A DNA stretch of 38,124 bases from Cyanobacteriota bacterium (GTDB lineage Bacteria; Acidobacteriota; Vicinamibacteria; Vicinamibacterales; UBA2999): positions 1 through 38,124 of the forward strand of contig JAIEMQ010000078.1 of the NCBI GenBank assembly GCA_019752015.1. The letters are read 5' to 3'. A program made the translations under genes and the position numbers. Within the stretch, counting starts at the first letter, position 1, and every line of letters starts with the position of its first letter. A model generated the notes under the pieces. That model worked only from the letters and a program-made list of their open reading frames with translations. It was not told where the DNA came from and did not search any database. This document shows positions 170 to 7,565 of the stretch, in pieces.

Positions 170-1537
170 TCAGCGAACCCACAGGCCGCGAGTAATGGTT
201 GGTGATCCGCATGATTCGAACCAGTCGATGCCTTCGCTGACCAGATCGAACTTCAAGCCATAGCGGCCGGGTTGCTCGGGCGCGGCGATGTCGATCCTGA
301 TGTCCGCCGAACGTCCCGGGCCGAGATCGACCGGCAGCCACGCGCGCGCGTGATCGCGGTTGATGACTTCGCCCTTTTCGTTCGTCAGCTGCGCGCCGAG
401 CCGGATGACCCGCCTGCCGTCGCCCAAATCCGACTGCGCCCGGAACGGACGGCCCGACACGTTCCTGACGTGCGCCGTCAGCGACACCGGCGTCGAGCGC
501 CGGATCAGGAACGGCAGGTTCGGCAGCACGGTGTGCACGTCGATTTCCGCGCGCGGCGTGGCGCCGGGAATCGCGTTGCCGAGACCGCTGTTGTCCCAGA
601 TCTCGTACTTGATGCGCTCGTAGTCCGGCGTGCCCGGCGCGAAGCGGCGCGAGAACGAATCCTCCGGGTGGTCGGTGATCTCCCAGCAGAGCCGATCGAC
701 GCCGATCTCGGCGGCCATGGCGCGCGCCTTGTCCATCTCCTCGTCGGAGTCGTTCCACTTGAAGAGAATGTAGCGCCAGTTCACGAACGGAGTCTGCCGT
801 CCGTTCTTGTTGCGCTCATCGAGCAGCGCGCGAAGATTCGCGAGCGCCTTGTCGAGATTCCCGCGCTGGCGGTACTTGACGTAGGCCTCCTGCGAGGCGC
901 CATCGAGGGAGAACGTCACTTCATCGATGCCCGAGCGCGCCAGCTGGCGGACCTTCTCGTCGCTGAACGCCAGGCCGTTCGTGCTCGTGTAGAGATAAAT
1001 GTGCGGGAACTTCGTCTTGATGTACTCGCACATTTCGACGGCGCGCTTGTGCAGGAACGCTTCGCCGTAATTGAAGAAGTCGATGCGCTCGAGCGACGGG
1101 CCGGCTTCGTCAATCACCTTCGTGAACAGATCGAAGTCCAGCATGCCGGCCTGGCGCGTGCGCGTGATGCCGGTCTCCGGCGCGCAAATCGCCTGGTTGC
1201 AGGAAATGTTGCAGGCCGCGGTGCACTCGACGTAGAGCCGCTTCGGGATCGCCGCGACGTTCAGATCGCGCTGCGGAATCGCATCGTCGGGGCCCATCGG
1301 CAGCTTGAGCGGACAATCGCCGCAGAAGCTCGATCCGCCCGCGTTCAGATCAACGCGCAGCTGTGACGCGACCGGCCCGGTCCAGATGCCGGCGACGGAC
1401 GACGTGCGCGCATCACCGAGGACGCGCTTCGCATACGGATCGGCGCAGCCGCACACCATGCGGCCGTCGCACAGCATGACGCCGATCTCCCACGGCCACG
1501 AACAGCGATAACGAGTGGCCAGATAATTCAGGGACAT
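170..1537 (-). CDS. Radical SAM protein with N-terminal SPASM-like region and Wzt-like C-terminal domain
   Basis: 455 residues from the ATG at 1537. An upstream in-frame extension exists but would only translate the 7-bp repeat array, so I reject it. Residues 1-80 hold six cysteines (C12, C23, C29, C31, C72, C75) in a pattern like a SPASM auxiliary Fe-S domain, here N-terminal instead of C-terminal. The radical SAM core follows with C105, C109, C113 and C118, then a FFNYGE strand and a TSTNG strand typical of the barrel. The usual CX3CX2C motif is not present: the spacing is CX3CX3CX4C. The last ~110 residues resemble the carbohydrate-binding C-terminal domain of Wzt transporters (GRYGLKFDLVSEGIDWF). 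Substrate unknown. Such proteins often modify peptides, sugars or lipids. It lies directly downstream of the coiled-coil, STAS and sigma genes. Confidence 0.8.
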   Translation of the reverse strand: MSLNYLATRYRCSWPWEIGVMLCDGRMVCGCADPYAKRVLGDARTSSVAGIWTGPVASQLRVDLNAGGSSFCGDCPLKLPMGPDDAIPQRDLNVAAIPKRLYVECTAACNISCNQAICAPETGITRTRQAGMLDFDLFTKVIDEAGPSLERIDFFNYGEAFLHKRAVEMCEYIKTKFPHIYLYTSTNGLAFSDEKVRQLARSGIDEVTFSLDGASQEAYVKYRQRGNLDKALANLRALLDERNKNGRQTPFVNWRYILFKWNDSDEEMDKARAMAAEIGVDRLCWEITDHPEDSFSRRFAPGTPDYERIKYEIWDNSGLGNAIPGATPRAEIDVHTVLPNLPFLIRRSTPVSLTAHVRNVSGRPFRAQSDLGDGRRVIRLGAQLTNEKGEVINRDHARAWLPVDLGPGRSADIRIDIAAPEQPGRYGLKFDLVSEGIDWFESCGSPTITRGLWVR

Positions 1538-1571: not shown

Positions 1572-1844
1572 TTACTCAGCGCTCTTCCCAAGCTTCCGCA
1601 GATACGCTTCGAGCTTGTCGTTCTCGTACTTCACTTGATTCAGGAACAGGCTTTCGGCGAGATACGCCTTGCGCTCGTCTTCGGTGAGCTGGTTGATCAG
1701 GTGATTGATCTCGCGATTCATGTCCTCGAACGATCGCTCGAGCTCCTTCTTCGCGGTGACCTCGTGATAGAGCGCCTCGAGCACGGCGAGCAGGTCGCCG
1801 TCGAGCACGATCTCGGCTCCGGATGTGGTCTTGATGCTGCGCAT
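1572..1844 (-). CDS. Small coiled-coil protein of unknown function
   Basis: 90 residues, acidic and charged. Residues ~20-85 are predicted helical with heptad-like hydrophobic spacing (LLAVLEALYHEV, then INHLINQL and LNQVKYENDKLEAYL), suggesting a coiled coil. There is no signal peptide, membrane segment or known catalytic motif. The start ATG at 1844 is two bases from the stop of the STAS gene, so it is probably co-transcribed and possibly coupled. The position after a sigma factor and STAS protein suggests a regulatory or scaffold role, but I do not recognise the family. Confidence 0.75.
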   Translation of the reverse strand: MRSIKTTSGAEIVLDGDLLAVLEALYHEVTAKKELERSFEDMNREINHLINQLTEDERKAYLAESLFLNQVKYENDKLEAYLRKLGKSAE

Positions 1845-1846
1845 GA

Positions 1847-2188
1847 TCAGGCCCCGAAGCTCGCGAGCGCGCCCGCCTCGTCCGGAAACATCTTCAGGAA
1901 GTTGTGCGCGCCCGTCATCGTCAGCATGGTCTCGACGCGCTTGTTGACCCCGGCCAGCCGCAGCTCGCCGCCGGCCGCCGTGGTCTGACGATACAGATCC
2001 ATCAGGCAGCCGATCGTCGCGGAGTCGACGTAGGTGACTTTCGAGAGATCGATCATCACCTTCTTGTCGCCGCCGGTCAGCAGCGACATCACCGCGCCGG
2101 AAAAGTCGGCCAGCAGGGGGTACATCAAACGGCTTTCGCCGATGCGGACGATGGCGACGCCTTGTGCGCGATCTGTCGTGAGATTCAT
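1847..2188 (-). CDS. STAS-domain protein, anti-sigma factor antagonist type
   Basis: 113 residues from ATG 2188; a GTG at 2191 is an alternative start. It is a single STAS domain. The strand VMIDLSKVTYVDSATIG carries the Asp-Ser pair whose serine (about S56) is phosphorylated by the anti-sigma kinase in SpoIIAA and RsbV proteins. The later LRLAGVNKRVETML helix region also fits. Its ATG overlaps the sigma-factor stop as TGATG, implying translational coupling. In known partner-switching systems an RsbW/SpoIIAB-type kinase links the STAS protein to the sigma factor. No such kinase is encoded next to this pair, so it either lies elsewhere or the STAS protein has another partner. Confidence 0.88.
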   Translation of the reverse strand: MNLTTDRAQGVAIVRIGESRLMYPLLADFSGAVMSLLTGGDKKVMIDLSKVTYVDSATIGCLMDLYRQTTAAGGELRLAGVNKRVETMLTMTGAHNFLKMFPDEAGALASFGA

Positions 2189-2799
2189 CACTCGGTCCCT
2201 TCTTCAGCTCGAATCCGCTGCACCTGCCGCGCCAGCTCGGTGCGGCCGCGGTTGATGCGTGATTTCACCGTGCCCTCCGGCAGGTTCAGTTGATCGGCGA
2301 TCTCCTGGTACGAAAGCTCCTGGATGTCGCGCTTCACCACCGCTTCGCGCAGCGTCGGCGGCAGCTCCGCCATCGCCTTGCGCAGCAGATCGACGCGGTC
2401 GCGCTGCTCGAGCGCCTGGTAGGCGCTCTGGCCCGGCGCCGCCGGCGTCAGCTCGCCGGCATCGACGTCGCGATCGATCGTCTCGCGCTCCTTGCGCACG
2501 CTGCGATAGTGATCGATGCACAGGTTGCGGCTGACGCTGACCAGCCAGGTCTGGAAATTCGCGCGCCGATCGAACGTGTGGAGCGACTTGAAAATCTTCA
2601 GGAAGATGTCCTGCGTCAGGTCTTCCGCTTCGTCGTGCCGCGCCGTGAACTTGTACGCGATGTTGAAGACCTTGCGGCGGTGCTGGCGGACGATCTCGTC
2701 CCACGCCGCCTGGTCACCGGCCAGGCAACGCTGGATGAGCGCATCAATCGCATCAGTGCCTACCGGCGAAGGGTCCGACATGTCGCGGTGAAAAATCAT
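2188..2799 (-). CDS. ECF-type RNA polymerase sigma factor
   Basis: 203 residues from the ATG at 2799, which has a G-rich sequence (GGGGGCG) eight bases upstream. The in-frame extension to 2904 lacks family similarity, and an ATG at 2781 is also possible. Region 2 is clear (EDLTQDIFLKIFKSL, then FQTWLVSVSRNLCIDHYR). Region 4 is a helix-turn-helix (LSYQEIADQLNLPEGTVKSR). Between them is a short variable linker. It probably directs transcription of its own operon and perhaps of the divergent secreted protein gene at 2934. No anti-sigma factor with a zinc motif or membrane helix is adjacent. Confidence 0.9.
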   Translation of the reverse strand: MIFHRDMSDPSPVGTDAIDALIQRCLAGDQAAWDEIVRQHRRKVFNIAYKFTARHDEAEDLTQDIFLKIFKSLHTFDRRANFQTWLVSVSRNLCIDHYRSVRKERETIDRDVDAGELTPAAPGQSAYQALEQRDRVDLLRKAMAELPPTLREAVVKRDIQELSYQEIADQLNLPEGTVKSRINRGRTELARQVQRIRAEEGTE

Positions 2800-2933
2800 A
2801 TCATTCGCCCCCGATTCACCCGGGCCGAAACGGGGTGAATCCGCGGCGAAAGCCAAAAAACGCTTGACGATCGCCGTCGAGACAGCCGAGCATCCCTCAT
2901 CCACAACTGGAAGGCCCTACCAGGAGATGGCCC

Positions 2934-5867: not shown

Positions 5868-6254
5868 CTACAAACCGCTCACCACGCGCGATTTGAACCA
5901 CTTCGTCAGTGCGTCTCGACTCATCGAGCCAGCCGCGAGTGCGAGCATGACGTGCTCCTGGTCATCGCCAGGTGCTTCGATCCTTAGCCCATTCATTTCC
6001 AGGAATACAGCCGTCGCGGCGTGCGCGATTCGCTTGTTACCGTCGACGAACGGATGATTCATCGCGAGGCTGAAACAGAGCGCAGCTGCTTTATCGACCG
6101 TGGTCGGATAGAGGTCGGTGCCGTCGAAAGTAGCCTTCGGTTGGGCAAGCGCCGACTCCAGCGCGCCAAGGTCACGAATTCCATCAGCGCCGCCGGTGCC
6201 AGCGATGACGGCGCGGTGGAGCCACACCACCTCGCCGAAAGTCAGATAGCGCAC
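5868..6254 (-). CDS. doc: Doc-type toxin, Fic fold (death-on-curing)
   Basis: 128 residues, typical Doc size. The Fic signature is present as HPFVDGNKR within MNHPFVDGNKRIAHAATAVF, with the catalytic-type histidine and phosphate-binding GNKR. Phage P1 Doc phosphorylates elongation factor EF-Tu with this site and so stops translation; by family the same target is likely. The N-terminal YLTFGEVVWLHRAV is the usual Doc opening. Its ATG lies three bases after the stop of the antitoxin gene. No loss of key residues is visible, so the toxin should be active. Confidence 0.92.
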   Translation of the reverse strand: MRYLTFGEVVWLHRAVIAGTGGADGIRDLGALESALAQPKATFDGTDLYPTTVDKAAALCFSLAMNHPFVDGNKRIAHAATAVFLEMNGLRIEAPGDDQEHVMLALAAGSMSRDALTKWFKSRVVSGL

Positions 6255-6257
6255 AGG

Positions 6258-6452
6258 TCACGCCAAGCGCCGGTACAGCTCGTTGTTCTTGGCAAGTACC
6301 CGTTCCGCAGTCGCCTGAAAGATTGCGTCCGGGGCGGCAAGAAGGTCTGTCACTGCTGCGCGGGCCAACTCCTCGACAGGCACACCGAGCCGGATGGCTT
6401 CTGCTTCGAGTTGCGCTGCTTGAGCGGGTGGTAATTCGATGGCGACTTTCAT
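6258..6452 (-). CDS. Antitoxin partner of Doc
   Basis: 64 residues. The N-terminal half (MKVAIELPPAQAAQLEAEA, then GVPVEELARAAV) looks like a ribbon-helix-helix DNA-binding segment. The C-terminal FQATAERVLAKNNELYRRLA is the amphipathic tail of Doc antitoxins that blocks the Fic active site. Its ATG overlaps the comF stop codon as ATGA, so it is translated behind comF. Such antitoxins usually repress their own promoter. Here I see no obvious separate promoter, so the module may depend on the housekeeping transcript. Confidence 0.85.
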   Translation of the reverse strand: MKVAIELPPAQAAQLEAEAIRLGVPVEELARAAVTDLLAAPDAIFQATAERVLAKNNELYRRLA

Positions 6453-7099
6453 GAGCTGATTCTACCGCGTTCATTCACCACACGTGCTGCTGTAATCGCG
6501 CGCACTTCTTTCACCCCCGCCATCTTCAACACGCGCGCGCACGCATCGAGCGTCGATCCCGTCGTCGAGACGTCATCAACGAGAACAACCACGCCGGGAA
6601 CCGGGAGCCGGGAGCCGGGAACCGAGAGAGCAAAGGCGTTTTTCACATTTGCCTCGCGCTGGTTCTTCGGTAATTCGATCTGCGACTGCGTATGCACGAC
6701 GCGTTTCAACAGCGGCATCACCGGCACGCCAAGATGCCGCGCGAGATCGTCCGCCTGATTGAATCCTCGTTGATACTCGCGGCGCGGATGCAGCGGAACG
6801 GGCACGACCACCTCCGCGTCCACCAGTAACGTCGCAGCGGTAGCCCGCATCAGCCCGCCCAGCGGCGGCGCGATCGATCTGCGCCGCTCGTATTTCAGCG
6901 CATGGAGGATCTCCTTCATGCGGCCCTCGTAGCGATCGACCGCGCATGACCAGTCAACGCCGTCACTGCGCAGGTGATCGATCAGCCGCGGCGCCAGACG
7001 CAGCTGCGTCCAGCACTCGTCGCAGACAGCGCCGTTCAGCGGATGCCGGAGCGTTCTCCGGCAACCCGCGCACGGCGGTTGAAATAACGATGAGAGCAG
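6449..7099 (-). CDS. comF: ComF family phosphoribosyltransferase-like protein
   Basis: About 216 residues. ComF proteins act in uptake or handling of DNA during transformation; dprA in the same window fits that role. It has a zinc-binding N-terminus (CAGC, then CDEC), the PVPLHPRREYQRGFNQ block, and the PRPP-binding loop VVVLVDDVSTTGST. Directly before that loop a 7-bp array encodes the odd insert SVPGSRLPVPG. The start is uncertain: no ATG, GTG or TTG lies in frame between the rsfS stop and the zinc motif. I use CTG 7099. The next in-frame starts (ATG 7345, TTG 7351) lie deep inside rsfS. Confidence 0.8.
   Translation of the reverse strand: MLSSLFQPPCAGCRRTLRHPLNGAVCDECWTQLRLAPRLIDHLRSDGVDWSCAVDRYEGRMKEILHALKYERRRSIAPPLGGLMRATAATLLVDAEVVVPVPLHPRREYQRGFNQADDLARHLGVPVMPLLKRVVHTQSQIELPKNQREANVKNAFALSVPGSRLPVPGVVVLVDDVSTTGSTLDACARVLKMAGVKEVRAITAARVVNERGRISS
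6594..6628. repeat. Five-unit 7-bp array inside comF
   Basis: CCGGGAA, CCGGGAG, CCGGGAG, CCGGGAA and CCGAGAG on the plus strand. It lies in the comF reading frame just before the PRPP-binding loop. Five heptamers make 35 bases, so with flanks the frame is kept. The same heptamer family is found upstream of dprA (11332-11365) and inside xerC (18489-18522). Confidence 0.85.
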
Positions 7100-7120
7100 G
7101 ACATTGCTGGAGGCTTTTGC

Positions 7121-7148
7121 CCAAGCCCCAAGCCCCAGGTCCCAGGCC
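7121..7148. repeat. Four-unit 7-bp array just after the rsfS stop
   Basis: CCAAGCC twice, CCAGGTC, CCAGGCC on the plus strand. It begins three bases downstream of the rsfS stop codon (7152-7154) on the coding strand and fills most of the gap to comF. Confidence 0.75.
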
Positions 7149-7151
7149 CCA

Positions 7152-7565
7152 TCAGGCGACGTCCGGGTATTCGATGCGCGTGGCGCTGCCCCAGAGGCGA
7201 TCGAGGCCGTAAAAGTCGCGGGCGTGCTTCGAGAAGATGTGGACGACGAAGTCGAAGTAGTCGAGCAGGATCCACTCGGCGCGGGCGTAGCCTTCCACCA
7301 GCGACGGGCGCTGCTTCTGAGCCTTGAGAGACTGTTCCACCGCATCGGCAATCGCCTGCACCTGCCGCGGATTCGACGCCGAGCAAATCACGAAGTAATC
7401 GGTGAACGCGCCCGCCTTCTTCAAGTCGAGCACCACGACGCCGGTGGCCTTCCGGTCGCGGGCCGCGTCAATCGCGGCTTCGACAGCCTTCGGCAGTCGC
7501 TTCGCTTTGGTGACCTTCGTGGGACTCGCAACCGCGGTTTTGGTGACTTTCGTGGTTCTTGCCAT
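7152..7565 (-). CDS. rsfS: Ribosomal silencing factor RsfS
   Basis: 137 residues. RsfS binds ribosomal protein L14 and blocks joining of the two ribosomal subunits when nutrients are low. The conserved core is complete: VVVLDLKKAGAFTDYFVICSA, then RQVQAIADAVE, EGYARAEWILLDYFDFVVHIF, and FYGLDRLWG. The first ~25 residues are a Lys/Thr-rich extension (TTKVTKTAV). It sits five bases after nadD in the usual obgE-nadD-rsfS order. Confidence 0.95.
   Translation of the reverse strand: MARTTKVTKTAVASPTKVTKAKRLPKAVEAAIDAARDRKATGVVVLDLKKAGAFTDYFVICSASNPRQVQAIADAVEQSLKAQKQRPSLVEGYARAEWILLDYFDFVVHIFSKHARDFYGLDRLWGSATRIEYPDVA

Follow-up and report, generated by a model that had tools for sequence, protein, structure and literature searches.

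The gene at positions 170 to 1,537 of the window, by which we mean the whole stretch of 38,124 nucleotides analyzed here (contig JAIEMQ010000078.1 of assembly GCA_019752015.1), encodes a radical SAM protein in which the auxiliary cluster domain stands in front of the core and the conserved core cysteines are spaced CX3CX4C. Judged by the conservation of its homologs, the gene is real and its odd features are family-wide, not the product of a local mutation. The explanation that we tentatively regard as the best one, and which is quite possibly right as a whole, is a functional radical SAM enzyme that resembles BtrN, carries out an oxidation and combines a permuted auxiliary cluster with a CX3CX4C core. 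The gene and the parts of its product are as follows.

170 to 1,537 including the stop codon, minus strand: radical SAM gene P0001, 455 amino acids, with the ATG at 1,537 (Pfam match).
1,310 to 1,504, minus strand: SPASM/twitch-type auxiliary cluster domain, residues 12-76 (Pfam, conservation and alignment with BtrN).
Within 1,310 to 1,504, minus strand: the cysteines of this domain, C12, C23, C29, C31, C72 and C75.
1,184 to 1,213, minus strand: putative cluster-binding motif C109-X3-C113-X4-C118 (conservation).
581 to 1,246, minus strand: radical SAM core, about residues 98-319 (Pfam, NCBIfam and structure comparison).
170 to 568, minus strand: predicted C-terminal Ig-like beta-sandwich, residues 324-455, NBR1-FW/CARDB-like (AF2 model with pLDDT 91.5, Pfam and fold comparison).

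Two Pfam matches, both above their curated cut-offs, establish the domain order. SPASM (PF13186) covers residues 12-76 (E 1.1e-5; 26.1 bits against 21.5) and precedes Radical_SAM (PF04055) at residues 105-251 (E 2.1e-10; 41.5 bits against 29.5), as a sequence-only reading of this DNA had proposed. In the available passages of PMC9012708, SPASM and twitch domains are described as C-terminal extensions; the window protein possesses the auxiliary domain, but not as a C-terminal extension. The same reading had called the domain order reversed. The order is indeed reversed, but it is less unusual than had been supposed, since NCBIfam contains a subfamily with an N-terminal twitch domain, NF033640 (N_Twi_rSAM), in which, to judge from the family name and the alignments, this domain is followed by the radical SAM core. 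The NF033640 profile aligned with the remote relative L131 over 3-271, with the L188 protein over 5-270 and with the N-terminal domain of L108 over 3-71. All scores were under the cut-off of 170 bits, at 35-51 bits for the relatives and 22.1 bits, in the core only, for the window protein.

The source genome (5.9 Mb, 82 contigs) carries one full-length copy of the enzyme, the four other matches being partial. The window starts at the first base of the contig, and the downstream side of the gene is cut off by the contig end. Between the window protein and a relative that is 84% identical (L092), the differences fall 54/38/157 by codon position, a pattern like that expected under purifying selection. 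Homologs were drawn from GTDB contigs (at least 79 loci) and from the whole genomes of 60 relatives, of which 33, including the source genome, matched at E<=1e-20; 30 of these hold close orthologs (E<=1e-120; the one in G057 is truncated by the end of its contig) and three hold remote ones. Of the first set of 113 loci, 109 gave a match to the query (E<=1e-20); the 104 proteins longer than 400 residues were aligned, and five shorter ones were omitted. These 104 rows include near-duplicates of the same genomes from two collections. Thinning to about 78% pairwise identity left 42 rows, 37 of which were used in the alignment (five whole-genome loci were omitted).

The string CX3CX3CX4C that the earlier reading had pointed out is present in the window protein as C105, C109, C113 and C118. 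The conserved set, however, is CX3CX4C: C113 and C118 are found in all 104 full-length homologous rows and C109 in 102, but C105 is cysteine in only 92, and this degree of conservation does not favor C105 as a core ligand. Position 117 is isoleucine in the window protein and cysteine in 91 of the 104 rows, and the family motif most often reads CX3CX3CC. The six-cysteine N-terminal region described in that reading was likewise recovered, with C12, C29, C31 and C72 each in 104 of 104 rows, C75 in 103 and C23 in 100. In the 37 thinned rows, C12, C29, C31, C72, C75, C113 and C118 are invariant, while C23 and C109 are kept in at least 90%. The three core cysteines are conserved outside Acidobacteriota as well. 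The standard CX3CX2C motif was absent within the family and appeared only in remote relatives. A local mutation or sequencing error as the cause of the odd motif was ruled out by the conservation in the 104 rows.

Conservation is nearly complete in the sequence NYGE, whose residues N156, Y157, G158 and E159 each occur in 97% or more of the 104 rows; this sequence presumably occupies the position that is usual for the SAM-binding GGE-type motif. Two rows, L029 and L086, have tyrosine at position 109. The L086 protein (6,001-7,356) also has NYSE for NYGE, and these two may be inactive copies. Within the source genome, 21 of the 23 radical SAM (PF04055) frames carry CX3CX2C; in one of the 21 (L208) a further cysteine also makes CX3CX4C beside it. 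One partial match has neither motif, and the window protein is the only one of the 23 with CX3CX4C and without CX3CX2C.

According to the available passages of PMC9012708, CX3CX2C is usual but not universal in the radical SAM superfamily. Those of PMC4389238 list the non-canonical motifs of QueE (CX14CX2C), HmdB (CX5CX2C), ThiC (CX2CX4C) and PhnJ (CX2CX21CX5C). All of them share with the window protein an altered spacing of the cluster cysteines. In QueE and HmdB, however, it is the first gap that is lengthened, whereas in the window protein the second gap is longer by two residues, and CX3CX4C is not among the motifs in these passages. NifB, whose core is also among the best fold matches of ours, is given as CX3CX3C in the passages of PMC9692996, that is, with one residue added to the second gap; small changes of the second gap are therefore not wholly without precedent. 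The notation CX3CX3C is also used for peptide cysteines, as in a passage of PMC3132745. No mention of 'radical SAM' together with 'CX3CX4C', or with 'N-terminal SPASM', was found in open-licence PMC papers, which is weak evidence of absence in print.

One of the closest known enzymes is BtrN (2-deoxy-scyllo-inosamine dehydrogenase; PDB 4M7T, 4M7S), which likewise combines a radical SAM core with a twitch-type auxiliary domain. Both halves of BtrN matched the family profile (E 1.8e-14), with their order exchanged: the core (residues 98-209) aligned with BtrN 21-134 and the N-terminal domain (residues 7-77) with BtrN 184-257, at i-E values of 1.6e-5 and 1e-5. By sequence comparison, both core and auxiliary domain thus appear homologous to those of BtrN, and the similarity is remote. 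The proteins differ in that the auxiliary domain of BtrN is C-terminal and that of the window protein N-terminal. They differ also in the core motif, which is CX3CX2C (CNRTCWYC) in the BtrN chain against CX3CX4C here. The BtrN chain, at 270 residues, has no room for an Ig-like domain. In the alignment, C12, C72 and C75 line up with auxiliary cysteines of BtrN, and the fourth auxiliary cysteine of BtrN falls between C29 and C31. The auxiliary cluster of BtrN has four cysteine ligands (PMC9012708, in the passages available), and because three cysteines align with a four-cysteine cluster, one auxiliary cluster is more likely than two in the window protein on this sequence evidence.

The predicted model of the whole protein has a pLDDT of 91.0. 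The best fold matches of the core were NifB (Z 16.7; 4.3 Å, 208 residues), SuiB (Z 16.2; 3.0 Å, 201 residues) and BlsE (Z 15.7; 4.1 Å, 211 residues), which are tied within 1 Z. BtrN was not among the best 50 fold matches of the whole model, and such absence excludes nothing.

A single origin of the wider spacing is likely, in a lineage whose members already had the N-terminal domain. Of 297 genomes sampled from the phylum, 60 gave a match to the family profile (E<=1e-25), and 21 of these hold close orthologs (E<=1e-180). The remote relative L131 has the N-terminal domain (domain order by eye) with the core motif CNLKCASC, that is, CX3CX2C, and shares 41% identity, over 306 residues, with the CX3CX4C protein of G064. 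L134 also has CX3CX2C, and L132 and L133 have CX3CX3C. Because remote relatives with CX3CX2C or CX3CX3C retain the N-terminal domain and the WRYILF..ND region, the change would have affected the spacing and left the other features of the family in place. In L135-L139, CX3CX2C is combined with SPASM-like cysteines at the C-terminus (domain order by eye). In a core tree of 35 rows, rooted at the midpoint, a branch with support 78/93 has all 23 CX3CX4C rows on the same side and is present in 80% of the bootstrap trees. The support for a single origin is modest; the bootstrap had not yet converged, and several remote rows sit on very long branches. No relative on a viral contig was confirmed, and of the four plasmid records that matched, none covered 80% of the query. 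In one of the plasmid records, from Alisedimentitalea, a cysteine-containing sequence was seen by eye ahead of a CX3CX2C core; this record gave no match to NF033640 at E<=1e-5.

The earlier reading had likened the C-terminus to the glycan-binding domain of Wzt, which the comparisons contradict. Pfam Wzt_C (PF14524) matched none of the 37 members at E<=0.01, including the window protein, while three other loci of the source genome do match it, and hhalign against 20 Wzt_C domains of relatives gave a probability of 6.9% (pairwise E 0.0052). Wzt structures were absent from the best 50 fold matches of the domain, although such absence excludes nothing. The predicted model and the profiles instead point to an Ig fold of the NBR1-FW/CARDB type. 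Foldseek placed the FW domain of NBR1 first (4ole, E 8.3e-6, TMt 0.59), with glycoside hydrolases, CARDB and further structures ranking after it. In the VIA comparison the best matches were an Integrator domain (7pks, Z 10.4; 2.8 Å, 109 residues), the FW domain of ILRUN (6vhi, Z 10.1; 2.8 Å, 106 residues), CARDB (3idu, Z 9.7; 3.4 Å, 104 residues) and NBR1 (4ole, Z 9.2; 3.0 Å, 105 residues), where rows within 1 Z count as tied. The Pfam family of the FW domain (PF16158, N_BRCA1_IG; structures 4OLE and 6VHI) matched 20 of the 37 members at E<=0.01. The predicted fold resembles that of NBR1 and ILRUN in the VIA comparison, but the window domain stays under the Pfam cut-off (19.5 bits against 28, with 28.9 for the relative L108), and CARDB and the Integrator domain fit equally within 1 Z. 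A sequence search of the PDB with the C-terminal profile was unproductive, its best match being ribosomal protein L3 at E 0.024.

Three proteins of the source genome carry this C-terminal domain: the enzyme, a methyltransferase recognized by Pfam and, at the end of a contig, another protein that looks like a methyltransferase (by eye). The domain was found at E<=1e-6 in six of the 30 relatives that lack the enzyme, in every case on methyltransferase-like frames (by eye). The surroundings of methyltransferases bearing the domain are in places suggestive of glycan genes (by eye, unscored). In L108 (5,482-9,465), the family member has an extra N-terminal Ig-like domain and lies beside heptose genes (by eye); an adjacent second radical SAM protein there has an N-terminal Ig-like domain and a C-terminal SPASM domain.

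Directly upstream of the enzyme gene lies a row of three genes.

1,572 to 1,844, minus strand: conserved protein of 90 amino acids with no Pfam or NCBIfam match, directly upstream of the enzyme gene.
1,847 to 2,191, minus strand: STAS-domain protein (PF01740, E 1e-15; conserved order).
2,188 to 2,904, minus strand: ECF sigma factor (PF04542 and PF08281; conserved order).

In the Vicinamibacterales the enzyme gene usually follows this row: 56 of 72 loci with at least 1 kb of upstream sequence have the 90-residue protein gene adjacent, a STAS gene at most 200 bases before it and an ECF gene in the locus (seven of the 79 loci considered had less than 1 kb and were not counted). Seven of the 16 loci outside this pattern are remote CX3CX4C relatives (L100, L102-L105, L108 and L109). 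In L095, the ECF, STAS and 90-residue protein genes lie about 2 kb further upstream. The gene of the 90-residue protein occurs in 50 of the 60 relatives, in all 30 with a close ortholog and in 20 of the 30 without the enzyme (counts uncorrected for relatedness), and, by eye, it adjoins the enzyme gene in every genome with a close ortholog except G017 and G037 (28 of 30). Among genomes without the enzyme, L177 and L178 retain the row of three beside lpxC, L183 has the 90-residue protein gene adjoining lpxC with an ECF gene present, and L176 has other genes in between. Because lpxC is near also where the enzyme is missing (L177, L178 and L183), its nearness says nothing about function. No immediate neighbor of the row at 1,572-2,904 was recognized as an anti-sigma gene.

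Outside the Vicinamibacterales the neighborhoods vary and share no common pathway. Roadblock and small-GTPase genes, MglB/MglA-like, directly precede the enzyme in L185 (by eye) and L186 (Pfam), which are two genomes of one family. The start of the enzyme is overlapped by a polysaccharide deacetylase gene in L187 and by an LVIVD-repeat gene in L100 and L102. Further neighbors are M14 peptidases (L103 and L104), a sulfatase with one opposite gene in between (L109) and the heptose genes of L108.

Several other features of the window were observed. A 7-base tandem repeat of 5.3 copies (1,537-1,573) lies between the stop codon of the 90-residue protein and the ATG of the enzyme. The spacer differs greatly from one relative to another, and none of 52 spacers contained the repeat in two or more units. 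Two copies of a 19-base repeat lie at 24-68, at the contig start. The genome has 14 exact copies of it, against none of the reversed control, and pairs of it stand at the starts of contigs C19, C47, C73 and C80; it is an interspersed repeat, and the assembly seems to break at it. At 5,868-6,452, a Fic/Doc-family gene (PF02661) is directly preceded by a 64-residue open reading frame with no NCBIfam match, and the two look like a toxin-antitoxin pair.

The substrate may be a sugar-like component of the envelope, a protein or another metabolite. It is possible, if doubtful, that the enzyme is a maturase of a protein or peptide, in which the Ig-like domain would serve for protein docking and the 90-residue protein could be what it modifies or else its partner. 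The best NCBIfam matches of the core are the metalloenzyme maturases TIGR04317 (E 1.2e-26) and TIGR04311 (E 3e-19), many SPASM enzymes modify proteins, the C-terminal fold is of FW type and the 90-residue protein gene is adjacent in nearly all genomes with a close ortholog. However, the matches cover only the core and are far under the curated cut-offs (93.7 bits against 380 for the tungsten oxidoreductase maturase TIGR04317, and 69 against 400 for TIGR04311). The 90-residue protein, moreover, is kept in 20 genomes that lack the enzyme. In a comparison of 77 loci with the enzyme and 14 without it (14 of the 20 such genomes), no position of this protein was conserved above 90% with the enzyme and below 60% without it, and its candidacy as the substrate is unsupported by this comparison.

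The sequence-only reading had suggested a radical enzyme acting on a polysaccharide or glycolipid. On this view the protein would be a dehydrogenase or epimerase of a surface sugar, with the Ig-like domain binding the glycan, and we consider it rather unlikely in that specific form. Some evidence does speak for it: BtrN acts on a cyclitol (PMC9012708, in the passages available), heptose genes adjoin the enzyme in L108 and the deacetylase gene overlaps its start in L187, the C-terminal domain is fused to methyltransferases (one by Pfam, the others by eye) and several of its fold neighbors are glycoside hydrolases. On the other side, the C-terminal domain is not Wzt_C, the commonest neighborhood is the regulatory ECF sigma/STAS row, proximity to lpxC is uninformative, and no glycan gene lies directly beside the enzyme in the window as scanned, where the downstream side is cut by the contig end. 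The claim of such a substrate is thus left with slight, circumstantial support.

A further alternative, which is very improbable, is that the protein is not a catalyst but an Fe-S sensor, or a degenerate member of the superfamily, that takes part in regulation within the ECF/STAS module. The non-canonical motif, the neighboring sigma factor and STAS protein and the degenerate look of L086 would fit it. Against it, NYGE is nearly invariant, the core cysteines are kept even outside Acidobacteriota and the 90-residue member of the module occurs in 20 of the 30 genomes in which the enzyme is missing.

A working radical SAM enzyme is the simplest reading of the sequence conservation and the predicted model. 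In the BtrN-like oxidizing enzyme that we prefer, C109, C113 and C118 would hold the SAM-binding [4Fe-4S] cluster, with a loop between the second and third cysteines that is two residues longer than usual, and the auxiliary cluster domain would precede the core and not follow it. If the chemistry is like that of BtrN, the 5'-deoxyadenosyl radical would take a hydrogen atom from the substrate, the N-terminal cluster, with the all-cysteine ligands C12, C29 or C31, C72 and C75, would accept the second electron, and the net outcome would be a two-electron oxidation. The C-terminal Ig-like domain may hold the substrate or a partner. We favor an oxidation in which the auxiliary cluster accepts an electron because of the likeness to BtrN and the complete set of auxiliary ligands, and we count against it that the best NCBIfam core matches are maturases and not dehydrogenases. 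An auxiliary cluster that takes up an electron is reported for SuiB, and is held likely for BtrN and PqqE, in the available passages of PMC9012708.

In the Vicinamibacterales the enzyme gene is probably co-expressed with the ECF sigma/STAS/90-residue protein module, and the modification would therefore probably belong to a regulated response, either of the envelope or to stress. As the substrate, a sugar-like component of the envelope is weakly favored. A bolder proposal, which taken jointly we judge unlikely, is that the family represents a new cluster-binding class of radical SAM enzyme. Here a stable CX3CX4C loop (often CX3CX3CC), set in a core that is otherwise standard, and a permuted auxiliary cluster would alter the geometry of SAM and electron transfer, and this altered geometry would support a new oxidation of a component of the envelope as an output of the ECF sigma/STAS system in the Vicinamibacterales.

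Radical SAM enzymes are usually recognized by the motif CX3CX2C. In this widespread family the second gap is longer, whereas remote relatives with the same architecture have the usual one; the resulting series of two, three and four residues is a natural one in which to ask about the role of this loop, and the swapped auxiliary domain lets one ask whether the position of the domain matters in electron transfer. The steady ECF/STAS gene row offers a route to the biological role of the enzyme in these mostly uncultured soil and water bacteria. On the sequence evidence presented here, the enzyme family is a conserved, real and testable variant of a well-known class.
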